Translations under genes and position numbers: made by a program | The notes under the pieces: model-generated | Seen by the model: only the letters and a program-made list of their open reading frames with translations | Databases searched by the model: none | Told to the model about the DNA's origin: nothing | Assembly: GCA_017936785.1 (NCBI GenBank) | Contig: JAGBEV010000045.1 | Span: 1 to 59,803 of the forward strand | DNA: 59,803 bases | Direction of reading: 5' to 3' | Source: Lachnospiraceae bacterium | GTDB lineage: Bacteria > Bacillota > Clostridia > Lachnospirales > Lachnospiraceae | Shown here: one piece after another, positions 21,323 through 35,584 of the stretch | Position numbering within the stretch: position 1 is the stretch's first letter | Layout of the letters: the number at the start of each line of letters is the position of its first letter

Positions 21323-21390
21323 GGACTACTAAAACAGGTTGATATTTTGCAGAGTGATCTTCTGATATATGGATTATACCAAAGCATCCT

Positions 21391-21490
21391 GCAAAATTGC
21401 TTCCTTACGCCGGTATTATCCGGTTCAAGTAGTGAGGGTTAGCTGCCAGAATCGGCAGCAGTCTCAGCCATGGGGCTCCCCTAGCAAAAT
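21391..21490 (-). promoter_or_regulatory. TPP (THI-box) riboswitch
   Basis: On the minus strand the conserved elements appear in order: GGGGAGCCC, GCTGAGA, a variable stem, AACCCTCAC, CTTGAACC, GGATAATACCGGCG and AAGGAAGC. These are the pyrimidine- and pyrophosphate-sensing helices of the TPP aptamer. It lies about 100 nt before thiT, leaving room for a translational expression platform. Confidence 0.96.
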
Positions 21491-21549
21491 TATTTGATTC
21501 GTACACACTATACTTGGTTTAAAAAGTTTTGTCAACTAAAAGAAAAAAT

Positions 21550-23988: not shown

Positions 23989-26900
23989 ATGTTTGACGCA
24001 AAGTTAGATATGCCCAAGCCTCCCCTTTACCGGGAAGAATTTGAGCATGACAACTGCGGTATCGGTGCTTGTGTGAATATAAACGGAACAAAAAGCCGTG
24101 CCACAGTTGAAAACGCATTAAAGATCGTAGAAAATTTAGAGCACAGAGCCGGCAAAGACGCCGAGGGTAAGACGGGTGATGGAGTTGGAATCCTGACACA
24201 GGTTTCTCATAAGTTCTTCACAAAAGTCGCTGATACCCTCGGTATTTTTTTGGGCGATGAAAGAGAATATGGTGTGGGTATGTTTTTCTTCCCTCAGGAT
24301 GAATTACACAGAAACCAGGCTAAGAAAATGTTTGAGATCATCGTGGAAAAGGAAGGTCTTACATTTTTAGGATGGAGAGAGGTTCCCACAGTTCCTTCTG
24401 TTTTGGGACATAAAGCAGTAGAATGTATGCCCTGTATCATGCAGGCATTTATCAAAAAACCTGCTGATGTGGAAAAAGGTCTGGAATTTGACCGTAAACT
24501 TTATATTGTAAGGCGTATTTTTGAACAGTCCACAGATTCCACCTATGTTGTTTCCTTAAGCAGCCGGACTATCGTATATAAAGGTATGTTTCTGGTTGGA
24601 CAGCTCCGTACCTTCTTTAGTGACTTACAGGATGAGGATTATGAATCTGCCATTGCCATCGTCCATTCCAGATTCTCTACCAATACCAATCCCAGCTGGG
24701 AAAGAGCCCATCCCAACAGATTCATCGTACACAACGGCGAGATCAATACCATCCGGGGCAATGCGGACAAGATGCTGGCGCGTGAAGAAAATATGGAGTC
24801 CGTTCATTTAAAAGGACAGCTTGCTAAAATCCTTCCGGTCATCAATGCCTCCGGTTCTGACTCGGCAATGCTTGACAATACGCTGGAATTCCTTGTTATG
24901 AGCGGAATGCCCCTCCCTCTTGCAGTTATGATCACCATTCCGGAGCCCTGGGCAAATAATAAGACCATGAGCCAGGATAAAAAGGACTTTTATCAATATT
25001 ATGCCACCATGATGGAGCCATGGGACGGACCGGCTTCCATTCTGTTCTCCGATGGAGATTTGATGGGTGCTGTTCTTGACCGTAACGGATTAAGACCTTC
25101 CCGTTATTATATTACTGATGACGGTCAGGTTATTCTTTCCTCCGAGGTAGGCGTCCTTCCTATCGATCCTACTAAGATCGTAAAGAAAGAAAGACTTCAT
25201 CCGGGCAAGATGCTTCTGATCGATACTGTTAAGGGCGAGGTTATTGATGACGATCATTTGAAACAGTCCTATGCAAGCAAGCAGCCTTACGGCGAATGGC
25301 TGGATTCCAATCTGGTGGAGCTTCATGATCTGAAAATTCCTAATATGAGAGTGCCGGAATTTACCTATGAAGAAAGACAGCGGATGCAGAAGGCTTTCGG
25401 TTATACCTATGATGAATTGAAACAGACCATTCTGCCTATGGCAAAGAACGGTTCCGAAGCCATTGCGGCAATGGGCGTTGATACTCCCCTGCCTGTATTG
25501 AGCAAATCAAAACATCCGTTATTTAACTACTTTAAACAGTTGTTTGCACAGGTTACCAATCCGCCTATCGATGCGATCCGTGAAGAGGTGGTAACTTCTA
25601 CTACCGTATATGTAGGTAAGGACGGAAACCTTCTGGAAGAAAAACCTGAGAACTGCAACGTATTAAAGGTACGCAACCCGATCCTGACCAATACGGATAT
25701 TTTGAAGATCAAAAATATGAAAGCCGACGGTTTTAAGGTTGAAGTTGTTCCCATTACTTATTATAAGAACACCAGTCTTGAGAAAGCCATTGACCGTCTG
25801 TTTGTGGAAGTGGACCGTATGTTCCGTGACGGGGCAAATATCCTGATCCTTTCCGACAGGGGCGTGGATGAAAACCATGTGGCAATCCCTTCACTTTTGG
25901 CAGTTTCCGCATTGCAGCAGCATCTGGTAACCACCAAGAAGCGTACTTCCGTAGCGATCATTCTGGAATCTGCGGAGCCAAGGGAAGTACATCATTTTGC
26001 AACCCTGTTAGGCTACGGCGCATGTGCCATCAACCCTTATCTGGCGCAGGAGTCCATTAAGGAATTGATCGATAACAGAATGTTGGATAAAGATTATTAT
26101 GCAGCGGTCAATGATTATAATGATGCGGTGCTTCACGGCATTGTCAAGATCGCATCCAAAATGGGTATTTCCACTATCCAGTCCTACCAGGGCTCCAAGA
26201 TTTTTGAAGCAATCGGTCTGGACTATGATCTGGTAAATAAATATTTCGGCGGAACGGTCTGCCGTGTAGGCGGTATTACTATGGAGGATATTGAAAAGCA
26301 GGTAGATGAGCTTCACTCCATGGCATTCGATCCTCTGGGACTGGAGACGGATCTGTCTTTGGAAAGCCCCGGACATCATAAGATGAGAAGCGGCGGAGAC
26401 GAACACCTTTACAATCCTGAGACCATTCATTTGCTGCAGGAGTCCACACGCCGTGGTGATTACAACATGTTTAAGCAGTATACCGCATGTGTCAATGACG
26501 AGACCAGCATAAAGACATTAAGAGGTCTTATGGACTTCAATTATCCCAAAAAAGGAATTTCCATTGAGCAGGTTGAAAGTGTGGATTCCATTGTGAAAAG
26601 ATTTAAGACAGGTGCCATGTCCTATGGTTCCATTTCCAAGGAGGCGCATGAATGTCTTGCTATCGCCATGAATAATCTGGGCGGTAAATCCAACACCGGT
26701 GAAGGCGGAGAGGATCTGGAGAGACTTTCCGTAGGACCTGACGGATTGAATAAGTGCTCTGCGATCAAGCAGGTTGCATCAGGACGTTTCGGCGTTACCA
26801 GTAAATATCTGACCAGCGCACAGGAAATCCAGATCAAAATGGCACAGGGAGCAAAACCCGGCGAAGGCGGACATCTGCCGGCAGGAAAGGTTTACCCCTG

Positions 26901-28542
26901 GATCGCAAAGACCCGTCATTCAACACCGGGTGTAGGTCTGATCTCCCCGCCGCCTCATCACGATATTTATTCCATTGAGGACCTGGCACAGCTGATCTAT
27001 GATCTGAAAAACGCCAATAAAGATGCAAGAATTTCCGTAAAACTGGTTTCTGAAGCAGGTGTAGGTACAGTTGCGGCAGGTGTGGCAAAAGCGGGAGCAC
27101 AGGTTATCCTTGTTTCCGGTTATGACGGCGGTACAGGCGCAGCGCCTCGTAACTCCATTCACAATGCGGGACTTCCCTGGGAGCTGGGACTTGCGGAGAC
27201 ACACCAGACTTTGATCATGAACGGACTTCGCAACAAAGTGCGCATTGAAACAGACGGTAAGCTCATGAGCGGACGTGATGTTGTGATCGCTGCACTGTTA
27301 GGCGCAGAGGAATACGGCTTTGCAACAGCGCCCCTTGTAACTATGGGATGTGTCATGATGCGTGTATGCAACCTGGATACCTGTCCTGTAGGTGTGGCAA
27401 CCCAGAATCCGGAGCTTCGCAAGAGATTCCGCGGCAGACCTGAATATGTAGAAAACTTCATGCGTTTTATTGCTGAGGAAATGCGTGAATATATGGCAAA
27501 GCTGGGCGTTAAGACCATCGATGAACTGGTTGGACACACAGAACTGTTAAAAGTAAAAGAAAACGTAGATGACAGATATGCAAAGATTGATCTTGGCAAT
27601 ATCATCAACAATCCTTATGTGGGAACAAAAGAAAAGGTTACCTTTGATCCCAAGCAGGTATATGACTTCCAGTTAGAAAAGACCATGGATGAAAAGGTAC
27701 TGTTAAAACAGCTTTCCAAGGCTATGGAAACCGGTGCCAAGAGAAGCATTGAAGTGGATGTTTCCAATACGGACAGAGCATTCGGTACGATCCTGGGTGC
27801 GGAGATCACCAAGAAATTTTACAATACCCTTCCGGAAGATACTTACCGCGTGTTGTGTAACGGCGCAGGCGGACAGAGCTTCGGTGCTTTTATTCCCAAG
27901 GGACTGACTCTGGAGCTGGTGGGAGATTCCAACGATTACTTCGGCAAGGGCTTATCCGGCGGCAAGTTGATCGTTTATCCGCCTAAGGGAAGCAAGTTTA
28001 AACAGGATGAAAACATTATCATCGGTAACGTGGCATTGTATGGTGCTACCAGCGGTAAGGCATTTATCAATGGTGTTGCAGGAGAACGTTTCTGCGTCAG
28101 AAACTCCGGCGCCATCGCGGTAGTGGAAGGCTGCGGCGACCACGGCTGTGAATACATGACCGGCGGACGGGCGGTAATCCTGGGCAAGGTAGGCAAGAAC
28201 TTTGCAGCCGGCATGAGCGGCGGTATCGCTTATGTACTGGATGAGGACAACAGCCTTTATACAAAGGTCAATAAAGAAATGGTTTCTTCTTATGAGATCA
28301 CATCCAAATATGATGTATTGGAATTAAAAGACCTGATCAAAGAACATGTGTCATATACCAATTCCGAAAAGGGCAAGCTGATCTTGGAAAACTTCGGAGA
28401 ATATCTGCCGAAATTCAAAAAGATCATTCCTCATGATTATGAGACCATGTTAAAAGCGATCGTCCAGATGGAAGAAAAAGGTATGAGCGCAGAGCAGGCA
28501 CAGATCGAGGCATTCTATGCCAATAAAAATAAGGAAGATTAG
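23989..28542 (+). CDS. gltB: Glutamate synthase large subunit
   Basis: Large chain of NADPH-dependent glutamate synthase (GOGAT), converting glutamine plus 2-oxoglutarate into two glutamates. The 1517-residue protein begins with a 21-residue propeptide before Cys22 (EHDNCGIGAC), the class II amidotransferase nucleophile. It continues through the central domain, the FMN-binding synthase domain (SGYDGGTGAAPR), the 3Fe-4S cysteines (CVMMRVCNLDTCPVG, near residue 1121) and the C-terminal GXGXG beta-helix. It lies 11 bp before gltD and is co-transcribed under a near-consensus promoter. Confidence 0.98.
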   Translation: MFDAKLDMPKPPLYREEFEHDNCGIGACVNINGTKSRATVENALKIVENLEHRAGKDAEGKTGDGVGILTQVSHKFFTKVADTLGIFLGDEREYGVGMFFFPQDELHRNQAKKMFEIIVEKEGLTFLGWREVPTVPSVLGHKAVECMPCIMQAFIKKPADVEKGLEFDRKLYIVRRIFEQSTDSTYVVSLSSRTIVYKGMFLVGQLRTFFSDLQDEDYESAIAIVHSRFSTNTNPSWERAHPNRFIVHNGEINTIRGNADKMLAREENMESVHLKGQLAKILPVINASGSDSAMLDNTLEFLVMSGMPLPLAVMITIPEPWANNKTMSQDKKDFYQYYATMMEPWDGPASILFSDGDLMGAVLDRNGLRPSRYYITDDGQVILSSEVGVLPIDPTKIVKKERLHPGKMLLIDTVKGEVIDDDHLKQSYASKQPYGEWLDSNLVELHDLKIPNMRVPEFTYEERQRMQKAFGYTYDELKQTILPMAKNGSEAIAAMGVDTPLPVLSKSKHPLFNYFKQLFAQVTNPPIDAIREEVVTSTTVYVGKDGNLLEEKPENCNVLKVRNPILTNTDILKIKNMKADGFKVEVVPITYYKNTSLEKAIDRLFVEVDRMFRDGANILILSDRGVDENHVAIPSLLAVSALQQHLVTTKKRTSVAIILESAEPREVHHFATLLGYGACAINPYLAQESIKELIDNRMLDKDYYAAVNDYNDAVLHGIVKIASKMGISTIQSYQGSKIFEAIGLDYDLVNKYFGGTVCRVGGITMEDIEKQVDELHSMAFDPLGLETDLSLESPGHHKMRSGGDEHLYNPETIHLLQESTRRGDYNMFKQYTACVNDETSIKTLRGLMDFNYPKKGISIEQVESVDSIVKRFKTGAMSYGSISKEAHECLAIAMNNLGGKSNTGEGGEDLERLSVGPDGLNKCSAIKQVASGRFGVTSKYLTSAQEIQIKMAQGAKPGEGGHLPAGKVYPWIAKTRHSTPGVGLISPPPHHDIYSIEDLAQLIYDLKNANKDARISVKLVSEAGVGTVAAGVAKAGAQVILVSGYDGGTGAAPRNSIHNAGLPWELGLAETHQTLIMNGLRNKVRIETDGKLMSGRDVVIAALLGAEEYGFATAPLVTMGCVMMRVCNLDTCPVGVATQNPELRKRFRGRPEYVENFMRFIAEEMREYMAKLGVKTIDELVGHTELLKVKENVDDRYAKIDLGNIINNPYVGTKEKVTFDPKQVYDFQLEKTMDEKVLLKQLSKAMETGAKRSIEVDVSNTDRAFGTILGAEITKKFYNTLPEDTYRVLCNGAGGQSFGAFIPKGLTLELVGDSNDYFGKGLSGGKLIVYPPKGSKFKQDENIIIGNVALYGATSGKAFINGVAGERFCVRNSGAIAVVEGCGDHGCEYMTGGRAVILGKVGKNFAAGMSGGIAYVLDEDNSLYTKVNKEMVSSYEITSKYDVLELKDLIKEHVSYTNSEKGKLILENFGEYLPKFKKIIPHDYETMLKAIVQMEEKGMSAEQAQIEAFYANKNKED

Positions 28543-28553
28543 GAGGTGCGATT

Positions 28554-30047
28554 ATGGGAAAACCAACAGGATTTATGGATTATGAGCGTCAGACCAGCGG
28601 TTCGGAGGCTCCAAAAAGCAGAATAAAACATTTTAATGAGTTCCATGCGTATCTCCCGGAAGAAAAGCAGAAATTACAGGGAGCACGCTGTATGGAGTGC
28701 GGCGTTCCTTTCTGTCAGGCAGGCATGATGATCTGTGGCATGGCTTCAGGTTGTCCTTTGCACAATCTGATACCGGAGTGGAATGACCTGGTATATACAG
28801 GCAACTGGAAACAGGCATATAACCGTCTGAAAAAGACCAATAACTTTCCGGAATTTACATCCAGAGTATGCCCGGCGCTTTGCGAAGCCGCATGTACCTG
28901 CGGTCTGAACGGAGACCCGGTGGCAACTAAGGAAAATGAACATGCCATCATCGAAAAGGCTTATGAAGAAGGATATGCAAAGGCAAATCCTCCCAAAGTG
29001 AGAACCGGTAAAAAAGTTGCGGTCATCGGCAGCGGACCTTCCGGACTGGCATGTGCGGACCAGTTAAATAAAAGAGGACATCTGGTAACGGTGTTTGAGC
29101 GCAGTGACAGGGTCGGGGGACTGCTCATGTACGGAATCCCCAACATGAAGCTGGAGAAGCATGTGATTGACCGTAAGGTTAAGATCATGGAAGAAGAAGG
29201 CGTTACCTTTGTGACAGGAGCAAATATCGGAAAAGATGTTAAAGCGTCCAAGATTTTAGCTGATTTTGACAGGGTAGTCCTTTGCTGCGGCGCTTCCAAT
29301 CCAAGGGACATCAATGCACCGGGCAGGGATGCAAAAGGAATTTACTTTGCGGTGGATTTCCTGACAGCCAATACCAAATCTTTGTTAAATTCCGGATTTA
29401 AGGATAAGCAGTATGTGGACACCAAGGGCAAAAATGTGGTGATCATCGGCGGCGGCGATACGGGGAATGACTGTGTAGGTACTTCCATCAGACATGGTGC
29501 AAAATCCGTAACCCAGCTTGAAATGATGCCAAAAGCTTCTGATGAAAGAGCGGAAAATAATCCATGGCCTGAGTGGCCCAAAGTCTGCAAGACAGACTAT
29601 GGTCAGGAAGAGGCGATAGCCGTATATGGCCACGATCCCCGTATTTATGAGACAACGGTCAAAGAATTCATCAAGGACAAAAACGGCAATTTAAAAGGTG
29701 TGAAAACCGTAAAGCTGAACTGGGAGAAAGACCCTGCAACAGGACGTATGAAAATGAGCGAGATAGAAGGCAGCGAACAGGTTCTGGATGCTGAAATCGT
29801 TCTCATAGCTGCGGGATTTTTGGGAAGCCAGAAGTATGTAACGGATGCCTTTAAGGTGGAAGTGAACGAGCGTACCAATGTAAAAACAGACAGCGGAAAA
29901 TATAAGACCAATGTGGATAATGTATTTACGGCAGGCGATATGCATAGAGGGCAGTCACTGGTTGTCTGGGCGATCAGGGAAGGAAGGGAAGCTGCAAAAG
30001 CAGTGGATGAAAGCCTCATGGGATATTCCAATCTGAATGTACAGTAA
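28554..30047 (+). CDS. gltD: Glutamate synthase small subunit
   Basis: Small chain of GOGAT, the NADPH- and FAD-binding partner that feeds electrons to GltB. The 497-residue protein has the N-terminal cysteine set for two 4Fe-4S clusters (CMECGVPFC, CPLHN, CPALCEAACTCG), an FAD loop (VIGSGPSGLACA, near residue 160) and an NADPH loop (VIIGGGDTGNDC, near residue 297), with a final FAD block FTAGDMHRGQSLVVWAI. AGGAGG precedes the start. Confidence 0.98.
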   Translation: MGKPTGFMDYERQTSGSEAPKSRIKHFNEFHAYLPEEKQKLQGARCMECGVPFCQAGMMICGMASGCPLHNLIPEWNDLVYTGNWKQAYNRLKKTNNFPEFTSRVCPALCEAACTCGLNGDPVATKENEHAIIEKAYEEGYAKANPPKVRTGKKVAVIGSGPSGLACADQLNKRGHLVTVFERSDRVGGLLMYGIPNMKLEKHVIDRKVKIMEEEGVTFVTGANIGKDVKASKILADFDRVVLCCGASNPRDINAPGRDAKGIYFAVDFLTANTKSLLNSGFKDKQYVDTKGKNVVIIGGGDTGNDCVGTSIRHGAKSVTQLEMMPKASDERAENNPWPEWPKVCKTDYGQEEAIAVYGHDPRIYETTVKEFIKDKNGNLKGVKTVKLNWEKDPATGRMKMSEIEGSEQVLDAEIVLIAAGFLGSQKYVTDAFKVEVNERTNVKTDSGKYKTNVDNVFTAGDMHRGQSLVVWAIREGREAAKAVDESLMGYSNLNVQ

Positions 30048-30671: not shown

Positions 30672-30785
30672 TTATATGTTACAGGAAATGACAATTTGAA
30701 ATCTAAAAAGCAGATAACTGTACAATGCCTGCTTTTAGGAATTCAAATAAAAATGGGGGATTCAAGAGGGGAAGGGTATTTTCAA

Positions 30786-31280
30786 ATGGGGAAAAATGAA
30801 CAATATAATGTTCAAAATCAAAACATGCAAAATCAGATGATGCAGGATCAAAACATACAATATCAAAACGTACAAAATGAATATATGCAATACAGGGATG
30901 GTTATAAACCGGTTGACTGGGATGACGGTAAGATTCATACAGTTGTACAGGGATATGATATCAATGATCCTGAACATTGGAATAGAAATGTACATTATCG
31001 CCCTCAACATGATATGGACGGTCCGCAATATATTAAAGGCAGGCAGGTGGGCTTTACAATGGTAACGAATGACCCGAAAGTAGTGATACCTGCGTATGTC
31101 GTACTTTCTATTATATTTATTATCATCACAGCTGTTCTGTTATCTATCGAAATGTTTAGATTTATGGGAGTCTTTTTTGCTATAATATTGATAGTGTTCT
31201 GGGTTGCAACTTTAAAGGAAAATATTCCATATTGGAAAAAACTGCGAAAAACTCAGAAGGATGATAAAAATAAAAAATAA
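30786..31280 (+). CDS. Small membrane protein with Gln/Asn-rich N-terminus
   Basis: A 164-residue protein of unknown function. Residues 1-40 are low-complexity Gln/Asn/Met/Tyr (QNQNMQNQMMQDQN), residues 45-95 are polar, then two adjacent membrane helices (VVIPAYVVLSIIFIIITAVLL and a second ending VFWVATL) and a Lys-rich tail. Its Gln-rich lead echoes the membrane protein at 1894. The start at 30786 follows GGGGAAGGG; longer in-frame starts extend into sequence that does not look coding. It has its own promoter. The MFS leader follows 18 bp downstream without an obvious terminator between them. Confidence 0.65.
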   Translation: MGKNEQYNVQNQNMQNQMMQDQNIQYQNVQNEYMQYRDGYKPVDWDDGKIHTVVQGYDINDPEHWNRNVHYRPQHDMDGPQYIKGRQVGFTMVTNDPKVVIPAYVVLSIIFIIITAVLLSIEMFRFMGVFFAIILIVFWVATLKENIPYWKKLRKTQKDDKNKK

Positions 31281-31298
31281 TTTTTACAGAGGTTTACA

Positions 31299-31400
31299 AT
31301 GAACGGTCTTGGTTATACGCCAATATGCAGCAGTAGTTGTCTTGAAAAATGTTTCGAAATACATTTTGACGGGATTACTGCGCCTATTTTTAAGATGTAA
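31299..31400 (+). CDS. Cys-rich 33-codon leader ORF upstream of MFS gene
   Basis: A short ORF with AGAGG 6 nt before its ATG, encoding 33 residues that begin MNGLGYTPICSSSCLEKCFE and contain three cysteines. It ends 121 bp before the MFS start. Codons 25-28 overlap GGGATTACTGC (31371-31381), one strand of a predicted stem, so translation of this ORF would disturb the leader RNA. This is the layout of leader peptides in translation-controlled resistance genes. It could instead be a chance ORF. Confidence 0.5.
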   Translation: MNGLGYTPICSSSCLEKCFEIHFDGITAPIFKM

Positions 31401-31520
31401 GTTTCTTTTACCTCATTGTAAAAAGCAGTAATTCCGAAAGGCTTAATCTTTTACCGGTAAGAAAACCGGCAGGGAAAGAGCCTTTTTTTGATGCAAGAAA
31501 TAATAAAAAGGAGTTACTGC
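31371..31520 (+). promoter_or_regulatory. Candidate attenuator with mutually exclusive pairings over MFS SD
   Basis: Strand B, GCAGTAATTCC (31425-31435), can form 11 consecutive pairs (one G.U each) with either strand A, GGGATTACTGC (31371-31381, inside the leader ORF), or strand C, GGAGTTACTGC (31510-31520, the MFS SD and the bases up to 1 nt before its ATG). A terminator-like hairpin (31437-31489) lies between B and C. A-B pairing leaves the SD free; B-C pairing hides it. Leader translation should favour one state. Confidence 0.6.
31437..31489 (+). terminator. Intrinsic terminator in MFS leader
   Basis: Stem AAAGGCT (31437-31443) with AGCCTTT (31479-31485), extended by CTTT/AAAG and CCGGT/ACCGG, followed by seven T (31483-31489). 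It stands 32 bp before the MFS start, so it would have to be read through for the transporter to be expressed, as in transcription attenuation. Confidence 0.75.
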
Positions 31521-31521
31521 A

Positions 31522-32682
31522 ATGAATAAAAATTTAGAGAAAAATATTGTTCTGGACTATATGTTCCGGATTCTTTGCAATTTTGCATTTGTAGATGGAA
31601 TTTTTGTTTTATATTTAAGGCACAAAGGGCTGGCCCTTTGGCAGATCGGTGTCTTAGAGGGGATTTTTCATGTCACGAGCCTGATAACGGAAATTCCATC
31701 CGGGGCGCTGGCGGATCTGTTTGGAAGAAAGCAGGCGTTGCTGGCAAGCCGTTTGTTTGGAGTTATATCTTCAGTGATCATGATATCTACGGATAGGATG
31801 TGGCTTCTAGGCATGGGTTTTGTGTTTACTGCATGGAGTTTTAATCTGCTTTCTGGTTCTGAAGAGGCACTTTTGTACGACAGCTTTCTGGGATTGGAGC
31901 AGGAAGAAAAGTATTTTAAGACCAATGGAAGATTGAGCTTTGCGGCGGAGATTTCCAATGGATTGGGTATATTTTTGGGAGGATTTTTGGCAAAGTATTC
32001 CTATACCCTGTGTTATTTGATCCTGATCGGAATAGATATGCTTTCATTTATGGTTTGCTTATTTCTGGCAGAGCCAAAGACAGGAAATAATAATAAGGAA
32101 GAGATATCTGTTAAGACCCATTTCATCAGAAGTTTTCATCTATTAAAAGAGAATGGGCAGCTGCGGTATATTTTGTTTCATTATGCTGTATTATTTGCAT
32201 TTTTTACCAGTATATATTTTTACAGTCAGGAGTATTATTTTGCAAGAGGATTTGATGAGGGAAAAATCGGACTGATCCTGCTTGGAATCAGTGGCTGCAG
32301 CAGCATGGGAGCATTGCTTAGCGAGAGAGCTGCAAAAAGGTTTGGAAATCGTACCTGTTATGGGATGGGGATGATGTTAGCTTTAGGAATGATTTTAATG
32401 TCTGCAAAGATGAATTGGGTTTCTGTTTTGGGATTTGGTTTAAGCTCCATGGCAAATGCGGCTCTTTATCCATTGCAATCCAATGAACTGAACAGGTGCA
32501 TTCCTTCAGAGCAGCGGGCAACAGTGCTCTCTGTCAGCAGTATGTGTTTTTCTGTGGTCATGATCCTGTTGTTTCCGCTTATTGGGCTGTTAGCAGATTA
32601 TTTGGGGCTGGAAAGAATTATTATAGTGTTAGGTCTGGCTTTGTTGATTTATAATCATTTATTCCGTCATCCAAGGAAATAG
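31522..32682 (+). CDS. Major facilitator superfamily transporter
   Basis: A 386-residue inner-membrane transporter with about 12 helices. The MFS loop 2-3 signature is visible as GALADLFGRKQALL. The protein resembles drug-efflux type MFS members, but I cannot assign a substrate. It is preceded by an unusual leader (short ORF, terminator, SD-masking strand), which suggests that expression is induced, possibly by a ribosome-targeting compound that it exports. The start has AAGGAG 9 nt upstream. Confidence 0.9.
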   Translation: MNKNLEKNIVLDYMFRILCNFAFVDGIFVLYLRHKGLALWQIGVLEGIFHVTSLITEIPSGALADLFGRKQALLASRLFGVISSVIMISTDRMWLLGMGFVFTAWSFNLLSGSEEALLYDSFLGLEQEEKYFKTNGRLSFAAEISNGLGIFLGGFLAKYSYTLCYLILIGIDMLSFMVCLFLAEPKTGNNNKEEISVKTHFIRSFHLLKENGQLRYILFHYAVLFAFFTSIYFYSQEYYFARGFDEGKIGLILLGISGCSSMGALLSERAAKRFGNRTCYGMGMMLALGMILMSAKMNWVSVLGFGLSSMANAALYPLQSNELNRCIPSEQRATVLSVSSMCFSVVMILLFPLIGLLADYLGLERIIIVLGLALLIYNHLFRHPRK

Positions 32683-33204
32683 GAAGAAATAAAAGCACCT
32701 ATATATTCTAAGCAAAGTGACAAAAATATTACTATAAGATATAATGATAAATATAAGAAGTGCACTTTAAAATTAAATGGTAATGATAATTTTGAAACAT
32801 TGACCATGGGCATAAATACGGAAAAGTATTAAGATATACGATATCAGGGAAATGATGTGGTGGATATATGGGTGCTTGGGTTAATTTTTCCATTCATATT
32901 GAGATAGCAGACAGAACCTTTGGTGCCATTAAAAAGATCGGGTATCAAGAAGTTTCAGATGAATTGATAGATCAGATTGCAGGAAGCCTTTGACTTTAAC
33001 ATACTCAGCCAACTGTCCGGCTTAAGATCGCTTCAACTCAATCTCTTTGATCTGAGGGATTATAACTGTCAAAATTAACAAAATTGCAGGATATCAGATT
33101 AGATAATGTTTCAATCGATTTGGAAACAGTAGATGATGAACTGCGCAGAATCATACATTGTTGATGGGTGATAGAAAAACTGAAATTGTATGAGGTCAAT
33201 CGTT
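32683..33204 (+). other. Gene-free stretch of decayed coding sequence
   Basis: 522 bp between the MFS gene and the next intact gene. It contains only broken reading frames, described in the pseudogene entry, and no promoter that I can support. Confidence 0.6.
32700..33164 (+). pseudogene. Decayed gene relic(s) with leucine-rich segments
   Basis: Protein-like fragments occur in shifting frames. The first reads from about 32,696 and ends SKQSDKNITIRYNDKYKK, then KLNGNDNFETLTM to a stop near 32,832. Next is a 41-codon piece (32868-32993) beginning MGAWVNFSIHIEI, then LSGLRSLQLNLFDLRDY (32995 onward) and LTKLQDIRLDNVSIDL ending at 33164. The last two have leucine-rich-repeat spacing. Several frameshifts or stops separate them. 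Most likely one or two small proteins of the immunity/LRR kind in decay. Confidence 0.5.
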
Positions 33205-33708
33205 ATGAAAATAAGAAGATTTCGTGCTTATGCAGAAAAAGATGATTTGCAAAATGTACTTGAAGAATTTCAAGACAAATTTGAAATATACTATGTGCCA
33301 ACCTATTCTGATACGGGGAAAATTTCCTATAACAGTATTATGGAAATAGAAAATGCAGGTGTTAATTTTTATGGTTCTCATATTGGAAATATGCAAATGT
33401 TTGTCTTTCTGAAAAACACAGAATGTCTATGGAGAACAGAAACGGGAAATTCAGCATGTATCTGCATTGACCTGAATGGAATTTATCAGGAAAATGCTAT
33501 TTTCCCAACAGAAATCAGTACTATGTATTATGATAATGAAACAGCAAAAAGGCTGTATGACGGACTTAAAAAAATATTTAGAAAACAGGCTGTCAAATCT
33601 GTAAATGGTGCTTATATATGTCCAAAAGCTTATGAACATAAGGGAAATTATAGATTCTGCACCATTGATATTAAATCTCCGCCGGAATATGATTTAAAAG
33701 TTGAATAG
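33205..33708 (+). CDS. Unknown small protein, first of four-gene cluster
   Basis: A 167-residue soluble protein, no family recognised. It starts MKIRRFRAYAEKDDLQNVL and ends SPPEYDLKVE, with no signal peptide or membrane helix. The start at 33205 has GAGG 8 nt upstream. It is followed at 21 bp by another unknown gene on the same strand. Size, solubility, AT-rich composition and neighbours resemble immunity genes of polymorphic toxin systems, but no toxin is in view. Confidence 0.65.
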   Translation: MKIRRFRAYAEKDDLQNVLEEFQDKFEIYYVPTYSDTGKISYNSIMEIENAGVNFYGSHIGNMQMFVFLKNTECLWRTETGNSACICIDLNGIYQENAIFPTEISTMYYDNETAKRLYDGLKKIFRKQAVKSVNGAYICPKAYEHKGNYRFCTIDIKSPPEYDLKVE

Positions 33709-33729
33709 CCTGTTGTGAGGTTTTGATAA

Positions 33730-34284
33730 ATGGATAAAGAAATCAGTGAATTCAAAAAAATTTCCCTTACGGGCAGGCTGTGTTATTTATTTATGTGCAT
33801 AGAAAAATATCTTGTTTCTTGTTATCCGGATAGGGATTGGACGATCGTTGCTAAAAAGTGCTGGCAATGGACCAATGGCTATTGGGATGAAGGCTGCGAC
33901 CGGTATTCCCAGGTCGTTCCAAGATATCTTTTTGAATTTGACAATTATCATGAAACCAATGAACGGGAATTTGACGGCGAGCTTTCGGAAAGCGACTATG
34001 AGACTTTGATAAATTTGTATGATGGAATTACAGATGGCAGCAAAGAGAATGAAATAGACCGAATACTGACGTTGCCAATCGATTTTAACAATGTCTGTGA
34101 AGGCACTGGATTCTCTTTCGCAGATGAGCCTACATTAAAAATTCTATTGGAGGCGCAATCTATTTTGTTAAGACATAATATTGACTGCCCGCCTGTTGAT
34201 GCCATTTGTTGTTTAACCATAGACCGGAAGAATGGCTGGGGAGAGTTTATGGACAGTGAGTATCTTTCTATTATTTTAAAATGA
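33730..34284 (+). CDS. Unknown Trp/Cys-containing small protein
   Basis: A 184-residue soluble protein, family not recognised. A Trp/Cys-rich stretch (DWTIVAKKCWQWTNGYW, about residues 36-52) and an acidic body (EREFDGELSESDYETL) are its main traits. GAGG lies 9 nt before the ATG. It is the second of four co-directional short genes and may be an orphan immunity protein; this is inferred from context only. Confidence 0.7.
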   Translation: MDKEISEFKKISLTGRLCYLFMCIEKYLVSCYPDRDWTIVAKKCWQWTNGYWDEGCDRYSQVVPRYLFEFDNYHETNEREFDGELSESDYETLINLYDGITDGSKENEIDRILTLPIDFNNVCEGTGFSFADEPTLKILLEAQSILLRHNIDCPPVDAICCLTIDRKNGWGEFMDSEYLSIILK

Positions 34285-34338
34285 TTAACCGGGTCTGAGC
34301 GGTGTTTGGACAAAAGAATGAAAATATGGGGGACGAGT

Positions 34339-34962
34339 ATGGAAGAAAAAAATTTAGAGCAGGTAAAAGAATTGATTAACAGGATTGCTGATTCCTACGA
34401 TCTGCCGTCAGAAGAGCAGGTTATGGAAATGCGCCGGCTGACAGGAATCGACTGGGAGGCAGAAGAACTGCAAATGTTGTGTTGTGGGTATTGGGAGCAT
34501 CATTCATTAGAAGAAACAGAATATCTGATGTTTCATGAGGAATATCCACCTGTCAATGAAACAGAGCTGGTTTTCTGGAAATATAAACCCGGCGTTGTCA
34601 TGGACGATAAAGAAGTATATGAGAAATATCGTTTGGGAAAAGGAAAACTAAAAGCAATAGAAGCACTGGATGTTGAATTAATACTTCAAAAAATAAAATT
34701 TCTGTTTCCTAAATATGAGCAAAATACAAATGCAGGCAGTGAGGGAAAAAGCTATCGCTTTGACTGTTCGGAGCAAGTGGAATATTGGACGGATACCCAT
34801 TTCTGGATTTTTATATACGGCAGGGAGATAGAGGATCGAATAGAAAACCAGTTGGTGCGTTTCTCCTGTCGCAATATGAGCGAACAGCAGATTAGCGCTA
34901 TTGCGGCATGTATGGAAGAATTTCAATGCTCTTTACATATCAAAGAAGTGAAAAACAGATAA
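34339..34962 (+). CDS. Unknown small protein
   Basis: A 207-residue soluble protein, family not recognised. It starts MEEKNLEQVKELINRIAD; the middle carries WEHHSLEETEYLMFHEEYPP and the C-terminal half is mixed alpha/beta (QVEYWTDTHFWIFIYGREI). The start at 34339 is chosen for GGGGGA 6 nt upstream; ATG 34318 and TTG 34306 are in-frame alternatives. Third gene of the cluster. Confidence 0.65.
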   Translation: MEEKNLEQVKELINRIADSYDLPSEEQVMEMRRLTGIDWEAEELQMLCCGYWEHHSLEETEYLMFHEEYPPVNETELVFWKYKPGVVMDDKEVYEKYRLGKGKLKAIEALDVELILQKIKFLFPKYEQNTNAGSEGKSYRFDCSEQVEYWTDTHFWIFIYGREIEDRIENQLVRFSCRNMSEQQISAIAACMEEFQCSLHIKEVKNR

Positions 34963-34993
34963 TGGCTGGGGAAATTTAAAGGAGAAAGCTATA

Positions 34994-35584
34994 TTGAGCA
35001 GTGCTTATAATGAAAGCCGCTATTTGCAGTTTAAAGAGCGGATTGAAAAAACAGAAATGGATGTCGCAAAAAGCAGAAGATTGATTTTAATTATACTACA
35101 ACAGTTAGAACCGTATTATCAATGCCTTCTTACCTTAGAAAGTATGGAACCGTTTGCAAAATTGAAAGGATTCCGTGAATATGTCAAATTGCATATCAAT
35201 AGCATTGAGCCGGATGTATTAGAGGAATATATTTTGCTTTGCAATGAAACAGGTCAGATTGTTGGAGAAGGCGAGGAATCAGAATTATTTTCGGAAGAAG
35301 ATATTTTATTGATGAGGGAAAAGTATTATACGGAAATACATACTTTATCGGATGAGCATAAGTTAGTGAGTGATTATGGATATTGTATATTTGGTTCATT
35401 GTATTATATAATCAGCTTTTTTCAATTTAGCACAGAAGATGCGGATAAAATGAAAAAAAGAGTAGAAAAATTGATATCTTTTATATTTGAAGATATGTTG
35501 TTAGATTTTAATGAAGATTTATATGACTTAAGCAACATTTCTTTTATTGATTCAACCGTTGATTTGCTGATGAAAGAATTATGA
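34994..35584 (+). CDS. Unknown helical small protein (TTG start)
   Basis: A 196-residue protein, mostly helical, family not recognised. It begins MSSAYNESRYLQFKERIEK and ends STVDLLMKEL; a hydrophobic helix (CIFGSLYYIISFF, about residues 132-144) is probably buried rather than membrane-spanning. The start is TTG with AAAGGAG 9 nt upstream. It is last in the four-gene cluster, and its stop lies 3 bp before a strong promoter for a short RNA. Confidence 0.65.
   Translation: MSSAYNESRYLQFKERIEKTEMDVAKSRRLILIILQQLEPYYQCLLTLESMEPFAKLKGFREYVKLHINSIEPDVLEEYILLCNETGQIVGEGEESELFSEEDILLMREKYYTEIHTLSDEHKLVSDYGYCIFGSLYYIISFFQFSTEDADKMKKRVEKLISFIFEDMLLDFNEDLYDLSNISFIDSTVDLLMKEL

Follow-up and report, generated by a model that had tools for sequence, protein, structure and literature searches.

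Known leader attenuators and the locus studied here

In attenuators of the erm and cat type, four strands of the leader RNA, numbered 1 to 4, form the mutually exclusive helices 1:2, 2:3 and 3:4, of which 3:4 contains the Shine–Dalgarno sequence (SD) of the controlled gene, and IFVI is one of the known arrest motifs of leader peptides. Ribosome-stalling leaders are compact reports of the compounds that a bacterium meets. The leader peptides MefEL, ErmKL and ErmDL read MTASMRLR, MTHAMRLR and MTHSMRLR, respectively (PMC4335068), and in mef(E)/mel and msrD an efflux MFS or ABC-F gene is preceded by a leader peptide that stalls ribosomes and by a terminator (excerpts of PMC4335068 and PMC10314930). 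The leader of Bacillus subtilis vmlR unites stalling on a uORF (the tripeptide MIN), a terminator with an incompatible antiterminator and an SD-sequestering hairpin (PMC9226507), and TTNTTT is a pause motif in this leader (PMC9226507) as well as in that of msrD (PMC10314930).

Here, we have analysed a stretch of 59,803 nucleotides from a Lachnospiraceae bacterium (contig JAGBEV010000045.1; the window), in which an earlier note had pointed out, ahead of an MFS transporter gene, a leader resembling the stalling attenuators of resistance genes. The resemblance held up: the leader is conserved and appears to be a leader-ORF attenuator of the same kind as those of erm, mef, msrD and vmlR. It shares with ermC and cat a leader ORF that has an SD of its own, a set of four strands, the 1:2/2:3/3:4 exclusivity and an SD within 3:4, but it has no IFVI motif, it controls an MFS pump and it carries an extra terminator between strands 3 and 4. 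Inspection of the leader peptides by eye revealed none of the known arrest motifs, such as +X+ and IFVI. They are also unlike MefEL, ErmKL and ErmDL as given in PMC4335068. The likeness to vmlR extends to the terminator, the SD-sequestering hairpin and TTNTTT, which follows strand 2 in 26 of 32 leaders, though not in the window; the differences are a leader peptide of 30–42 residues (34 loci) and a 2:3 helix that, in leaders of the window's type (type A), does not overlap the terminator (compared with the excerpts of PMC9226507). In comparison with mef(E)/mel and msrD, the leader lacks both the +X+ motif and the MYLIFM peptide, and its RNA is different (as far as described in the excerpts of PMC4335068 and PMC10314930). 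No Rfam cis-regulatory family matched the leader at its gathering score, matches in 31200–31600 being below threshold. The leader ORF had been called unfamiliar, and indeed its peptide motifs were not found by exact letters in the 5.39 million papers searched, and among the results listed in topic searches there was no description of it. The kind of mechanism is already known; for the leader peptide lineage we found no published match.

Alternative helices in the leader

The leader ORF of 33 codons (MNGLGYTPICSSSCLEKCFEIHFDGITAPIFKM; 31299–31400), which has peptide relatives in other loci, is preceded by its own SD, AGAGG, read from the sequence at 31288–31292; these and all other features of the locus are on the + strand. 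Downstream of its start lie A (GGGATTACTGC, 31371–31381), B (GCAGTAATTCC, 31425–31435) and C (GGAGTTACTGC, 31510–31520), the last of which comprises the SD and spacer of the MFS gene (31522–32682, ATG at 31522, 386 aa; Pfam MFS_1, E 4e-27). The best NCBIfam match of the transporter was HP1165-family efflux, under the cut-off of that model; PADLOC returned nothing matching it, and no related solved structure was found at E 0.01. The earlier note had placed the ORF, its SD, A, B, C and the MFS start correctly, and the two helices that it had claimed were reproduced, as A:B and B:C each have 11 of 11 pairs with one G.U (B:C duplex, −18.5 kcal/mol). No other 11-bp helix with one G.U or none exists in 31283–31545, except for a neighbour of A:B shifted in register by one base. 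Any such helix arose in 58 of 400 dinucleotide shuffles of this region, and two that share a strand arose in 0 of 400, in line with the claim that such a pair is unlikely by chance.

The leader region has a fold energy of −71.1 kcal/mol (z = −5.2 compared with shuffles), and its minimum-energy fold revealed an additional strand within the leader ORF that had been overlooked: strand 1 (31327–31344, codons 10–16) forms 14 pairs with 31370–31383, that is, with strand 2 (A). Together with strands 3 (B) and 4 (C), it gives the 1:2/2:3/3:4 layout of erm-type attenuators. With A, B and C alone, a ribosome on A would turn the transporter gene off; strand 1 makes stalling an ON signal, since a ribosome over strand 1 frees A to take B. 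Thus, the proposal that translation of, or stalling in, the leader sets efflux expression was supported with regard to the kind of attenuator, which is conserved, but its scheme of A, B and C was incomplete and needs strand 1. The label 'Cys-rich' given to the ORF is weak, with 3 Cys in 33 residues; Cys14 is present in 4 of 33 distinct leaders, and Cys10 was demanded by the search pattern described below.

The terminator claimed between the two helix options is also present. This intrinsic terminator, T2 (31438–31489), is nested between strands 3 and 4 and consists of a hairpin (31438–31484, −19.4 kcal/mol) with U7 at 31483–31489; a simple consensus terminator scan did not list it, probably because its stem is interrupted. 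As in leaders of the vmlR, mef and msrD type, an intrinsic terminator thus belongs to the leader, and a hairpin with a U tract stands close 3' of B in all 32 folded loci. A second U-rich tract (31387–31391), 3' of the 1:2 hairpin, may be a pause site for RNA polymerase or a first terminator. The corresponding T-rich tract after A occurs in 31 of 31 rows of our alignment (31 of 34 loci; L012, L016 and L030 omitted) and is interrupted in L024.

Conservation of the leader and its downstream genes

The earlier note had made its proposal depend on the conservation of the pairings and the leader ORF in orthologous loci, and both were found to be kept. When the MFS protein was searched for in 397 genomes from the family of the window (E up to 1e-50, no peptide filter), orthologues came up in five genomes, including that of the window. 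All four other loci carry a related leader ORF, three with MNGLGY[TI]P[VI]CSSS and one diverged (SKGFHIVVSSSS), and an A-like element lies behind the leader start in each of them. A degenerate peptide pattern, GY[TIM]P[IVM]CSSS, run on genome contigs yielded 33 loci, three of which were shared with the MFS-protein search. It should be noted that the pattern fixes codons 5–13, so that their conservation in the pattern loci follows from the search itself. The labels of 26 loci were Lachnospiraceae or genera that we take to belong there, and those of the other seven were Eubacteriales, Clostridium (two, including the ABC-F locus L017), Clostridia, Bacillus and Bacillota (two). One locus, L008, is from the culturable Anaerosacchariphilus polymeriproducens.

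The A element was found in 33 out of 33 pattern loci, 69–72 nt 3' of the leader ATG and with 17–23 of 23 positions matching; the match to B was weakest in L011, L014 and L022 (7 of 11 positions). A predicted leader ORF is thus present in the window, in its four orthologous loci and in all 33 loci of the pattern search. According to tblastn, a relative of the window's MFS protein follows in 30 of the 33; of the remaining three, L017 has an ABC-F gene, and the slices of L009 and L011 end 403 and 165 nt after the ATG. In three loci (L019, L028 and L031), a type A leader is followed by MFS frames that break 15, 134 and 74 codons after the start used, which reflects decay or assembly errors.

Mobile elements were searched as well. 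There was no DNA match for three leaders in plasmids or for one leader in phages, and three patterns had no match in viral contigs. The leader peptides gave chance-level tblastn matches in plasmids (E 2 to 7 among the matches listed, which were 30 of 56 records in one search and both of two in another), and the MFS protein matched 87 plasmid records, all at less than 60% identity, and one phage partially. A single-protein scan of genome contigs produced 22 pattern stretches, none of which was confirmed. Weak covariance-model matches at L050, L051 and L052 were judged to be due to chance. Another weak match to the leader model, L048 (E 0.0019 per genome, 397 genomes searched), is possibly due to chance; it has a 7-codon ORF, MSGFSCR, and a hairpin with CGGGATTATTG, and precedes a gene for an Lsa-family-like ABC-F protein (713 bits, cut-off 750) that is open at the end of the slice.

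RNA-level constraint and covariation

The leaders fall into two classes with respect to the frame in which A is read, RDYCALF in one and GITAP[FI]F in the other. The offset of A is 72 in 21 and 71 in 12 of the 33 distinct leaders used for codon counts (L017 left out), and both classes retain the sequence of A together with the T-rich tract that follows. On a tree of 25 MFS proteins (L017 and proteins shorter than 340 aa excluded), the frame label changes five times, and at least two of these changes are forced by well-supported branches. Because A is kept in two reading frames, it is conserved as RNA, and it offers a clean case of RNA constraint within a coding sequence. For the beginning of the ORF, pN/pS was 0.21 in codons 2–9, of which codons 5–9 were fixed by the pattern, compared with 0.53 in codons 14–18, and peptide-level selection on codons 2–9 is suggested by these values.

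Covariance analysis across homologous MFS leaders, which the earlier note had named as a check, showed that both helices covary. B paired better with the C of its own locus than with those of others: for B:C (29 distinct pairs), the own mean energy was reached in 0 of 5000 permutations, and for A:B (17 distinct pairs) in 3 of 5000, counts that include related sequences and are not strict probabilities. In A:B, changes on both sides occur at pairs 1, 5, 8 and 11, and 164 of 186 cells are standard pairs. The core of B pairs with the SD region of C at seven or eight of eight positions in 23 of 29 distinct loci; fewer positions pair in L010, L017, L026, L029, L035 and L037. Mutually exclusive helices with a common strand, one of them covering the SD, are supported by these data, but not in L017.

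Simulated ribosome stalling

The effect of a stalled ribosome was simulated by masking the RNA covered by a ribosome at codon 9 in 32 loci (L011 and L024, in which no start was found, were dropped; transporter starts were set by hand in five loci). On average, the probability of A:B rose from 0.24 to 0.68 and that of B:C fell from 0.53 to 0.20, A:B being raised in 31 of the 32 loci. The SD became more open than without a ribosome in 25 loci and was more open than with a ribosome at the stop codon in 26. At equilibrium the window illustrates this poorly, as its B:C is strong and stronger than A:B: on the full leader, masking raised A:B from 0.00 to 0.10 and B:C was 0.90. L018, L020 and L036 behaved in the same way. 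When the RNA ended at T2, however, A:B in the window went from 0.03 to 1.00 with masking, which suggests that the order of synthesis would decide the switch there. In the absence of a ribosome, A paired with strand 1 with a probability of 0.95 in the window and a mean of only 0.28 over the 32 loci, so that a first strand inside the leader ORF, where a stalled ribosome would cover it, is evident in the window but weak on average in the family. At L017, with its ABC-F gene, B:C has only 5 of 8 pairs and the SD was open in every state (0.81–0.82).

T2, on the other hand, did not respond. Its probability in the window was 0.96 both with and without the stalled ribosome. Over the 27 rows in which the right hairpin was scored, it was 0.55–0.99 without and 0.88–1.00 with the ribosome; the mean over 32 rows changed from 0.84 to 0.86, five of these rows being scored on another hairpin (L020, L021 and L030) or a composite one (L010 and L033), with the right hairpin seen separately in all five. 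Since neither A:B nor masking affected its probability in the equilibrium folds, T2 was rejected as the switched element of type A leaders; a terminator prevented by stalling, as in the vmlR, mef and msrD type, was not seen in these folds, nor was an antiterminator strand overlapping T2. T2 may set a low constant level, help to unite B and C or respond to another factor.

A sister family of leaders

A search of the eight other genomes of the window's genus gave one match at E ≤0.001 (L003), a transporter 29% identical to that of the window and preceded by a leader of a different, sister type. The sister pattern GGGGATAGTGCGC(N)CTTTTTTAG, with up to three mismatches, matched 16 of the 397 family genomes, and no control matches were among the matches listed. 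One of the 16 was a type A locus, one (G374) had an unrelated-looking repeat and 14 were sister loci. G374 contains 16 matches to TATAGGGATAGTCTGCCCTTTTTTAGG or the like, of which ten are listed (L061 and L069–L077), several of them at positions 41–67 of contigs; this repeated element is apparently another thing than the leader.

The 14 sister loci and L003 share an ORF of 18–38 residues, M.W[KR]......L..[KN]G, which reads GDSA through A in 13 of the 15. In the other two, L054 and L067, the start is one more base away and a stop codon closes the frame ahead of or within A, yet the letters of A are kept, a second sign of RNA-level constraint on A. An MFS gene 28–33% identical to that of the window was found in 13 of the 14 sister loci (L057 counted via L047, which is the same place). 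In L059 the sister-type leader is intact, but the reading frame of the transporter stops within a few codons; the next ORF, of 413 aa, looks by eye like that of a secretion adaptor, and the pump seems to have been replaced or lost.

The topology is that of type A, with different letters and before related transporters, and the sister leaders have no Ser/Cys run. B is typically GCATTATCTCCTTAA and C TTAAGGAGATTTTTTTATG, and the B:C hairpin overlaps the SD and is followed by a U tract; judged from these letters, sister B:C would double as an SD lock and a terminator-like hairpin. Masking in 14 loci (L053, with no C matched, was left out, and L054 and L067 were started one base off) raised A:B from 0.21 to 0.70 and lowered B:C from 0.49 to 0.23; L067 did not respond (A:B 0.00 to 0.01) and L003 did so little. 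The own mean of sister B:C was reached in 1 of 5000 permutations (14 pairs, related sequences included). A leader from another family, L049 (NIKKGYTPISSSS), looks intermediate between the two types. We tentatively suggest, with rather less than even confidence, that the GYTP[IV]CSSS and KKGYTF..YGDSA leaders could be two branches of one undescribed Lachnospiraceae arrest-peptide lineage, sensing a compound via the ribosome and switching on dedicated MFS exporters or an ABC-F protein.

Proposed mechanism and inducer

The strands and their exclusivity, conservation and covariation, together with the tie to MFS and, once, ABC-F genes, can be read from the sequences, and they make it quite probable, in our judgement, that the element is a ribosome-stalling attenuator, presumably for a ribosome-targeting inhibitor; that stalling takes place, at which codon and by which class of inducer is what we infer from them. 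In the absence of inhibitor, strand 1 would pair with strand 2, or ribosomes would pass through the leader; strand 3 would then be free for strand 4, and the transporter SD would be hidden. An inhibitor would stall the ribosome on MNGLGYTP[IV]CSSS, at about codons 8–13, where it would cover strand 1, and strand 2 would take strand 3 before strand 4 is synthesised, permitting translation of the transporter. T2, between strands 3 and 4, would lower basal transcription. A conserved peptide that occurs in many Lachnospiraceae, at little-known pumps, and that has none of the arrest motifs used for comparison points to an inducible tolerance system that has gone unrecognised, and the leader would be a natural sensor for the triggering compound.

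A ribosome-targeting inducer is favoured by L017, in which this leader, equipped with a promoter-like site of its own, precedes an ABC-F gene whose product passes the NCBI 'ribosomal protection-like' model (469 bits, cut-off 380). No drug-specific model was passed by this protein, and none of 200 family genomes had a close relative at E 1e-200, a limit that is probably too strict. The export of a thiol-related compound, which the earlier note had suggested as another option, is not supported, as the CSSS run coincides with strand-1 RNA and the sister family is without the run. Although TGY-AGY-AGY-AGY is consecutive in 33 of 33 distinct type A leaders, the run seems better explained as strand-1 RNA read in one frame. 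Stalling by phenicol-like inhibitors follows context rules, and it could be speculated that the SSSS stretch or the T-P pair suits them.

Several other explanations were considered. The leader may sense a small molecule by nascent-chain arrest, as TnaC and SpeFL do, with the MFS protein exporting that molecule, be it an antibiotic or not. The fairly long leader with its conserved N-terminal motif and the MFS relatives downstream in most fetched loci fit this idea, but one leader stands ahead of a ribosomal protection-like ABC-F, which is not an exporter, and we regard it as unlikely. Amino-acid attenuation, in which a lack of charged Ser or Cys tRNA would stall ribosomes at CSSS, could account for the invariant TGY-AGY-AGY-AGY codons. 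However, the same run doubles as the A-pairing strand and was demanded by the search pattern, the sister family has the same switch without it, and the downstream genes identified encode MFS or ABC-F proteins and not biosynthetic enzymes, which makes this explanation very unlikely.

Regulation might also act mainly on transcription, at T2 or at the U tract that follows the 1:2 hairpin, with SD pairing being secondary. The hairpin and U tract near B in all folded loci and the U tract behind the SD-overlapping hairpin of the sister family speak for it, and the vmlR leader unites both levels (PMC9226507, in excerpt); against it, masking did not reduce T2 probability in the 27 correctly scored rows and an antiterminator strand overlapping T2 was not seen, and we consider it highly improbable that transcription is the main level. 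Finally, chance complementarity, or a constraint from the common SD motif only, would be compatible with the shuffles that contained some 11-bp helix, but it is already contradicted by the lack of shared-strand pairs in the same shuffles, by conservation and covariation and by the two-frame reading of A, and hardly deserves any credence. Compared with these alternatives, the ribosome-stalling attenuator remains our preferred reading.

Promoters and neighbouring genes

A promoter-like site with at least 10 of 12 consensus matches was found within 150 nt upstream in 19 of 32 loci, compared with 1.5 expected from shuffles (32 of 34 loci, window included; L012 and L016 had too little upstream DNA). 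In the window, the first promoter scan listed no + strand promoter ahead of the leader, and the best site is a weak candidate with 9 of 12 matches, a −10 box TATAAT at 31181–31186 (with TAGATT at 31157–31162), 112 nt 5' of the leader ATG and within an upstream ORF. This 194-aa ORF (30696–31280, +), without Pfam match, has a Gln/Asn/Met-rich N-terminal part and a hydrophobic C-terminal half; it ends 18 nt 5' of the leader start codon, so that both may lie on one transcript. Behind the transporter, 33190–35584 (+) holds four successive ORFs of 172–218 aa without Pfam or NCBIfam match or notable mutual similarity. Genes for the large and small subunits of glutamate synthase lie 5' of the locus (23989–30047, +), and a TPP riboswitch at 21385–21492 (−) scored 69.8 bits, over the Rfam gathering score.
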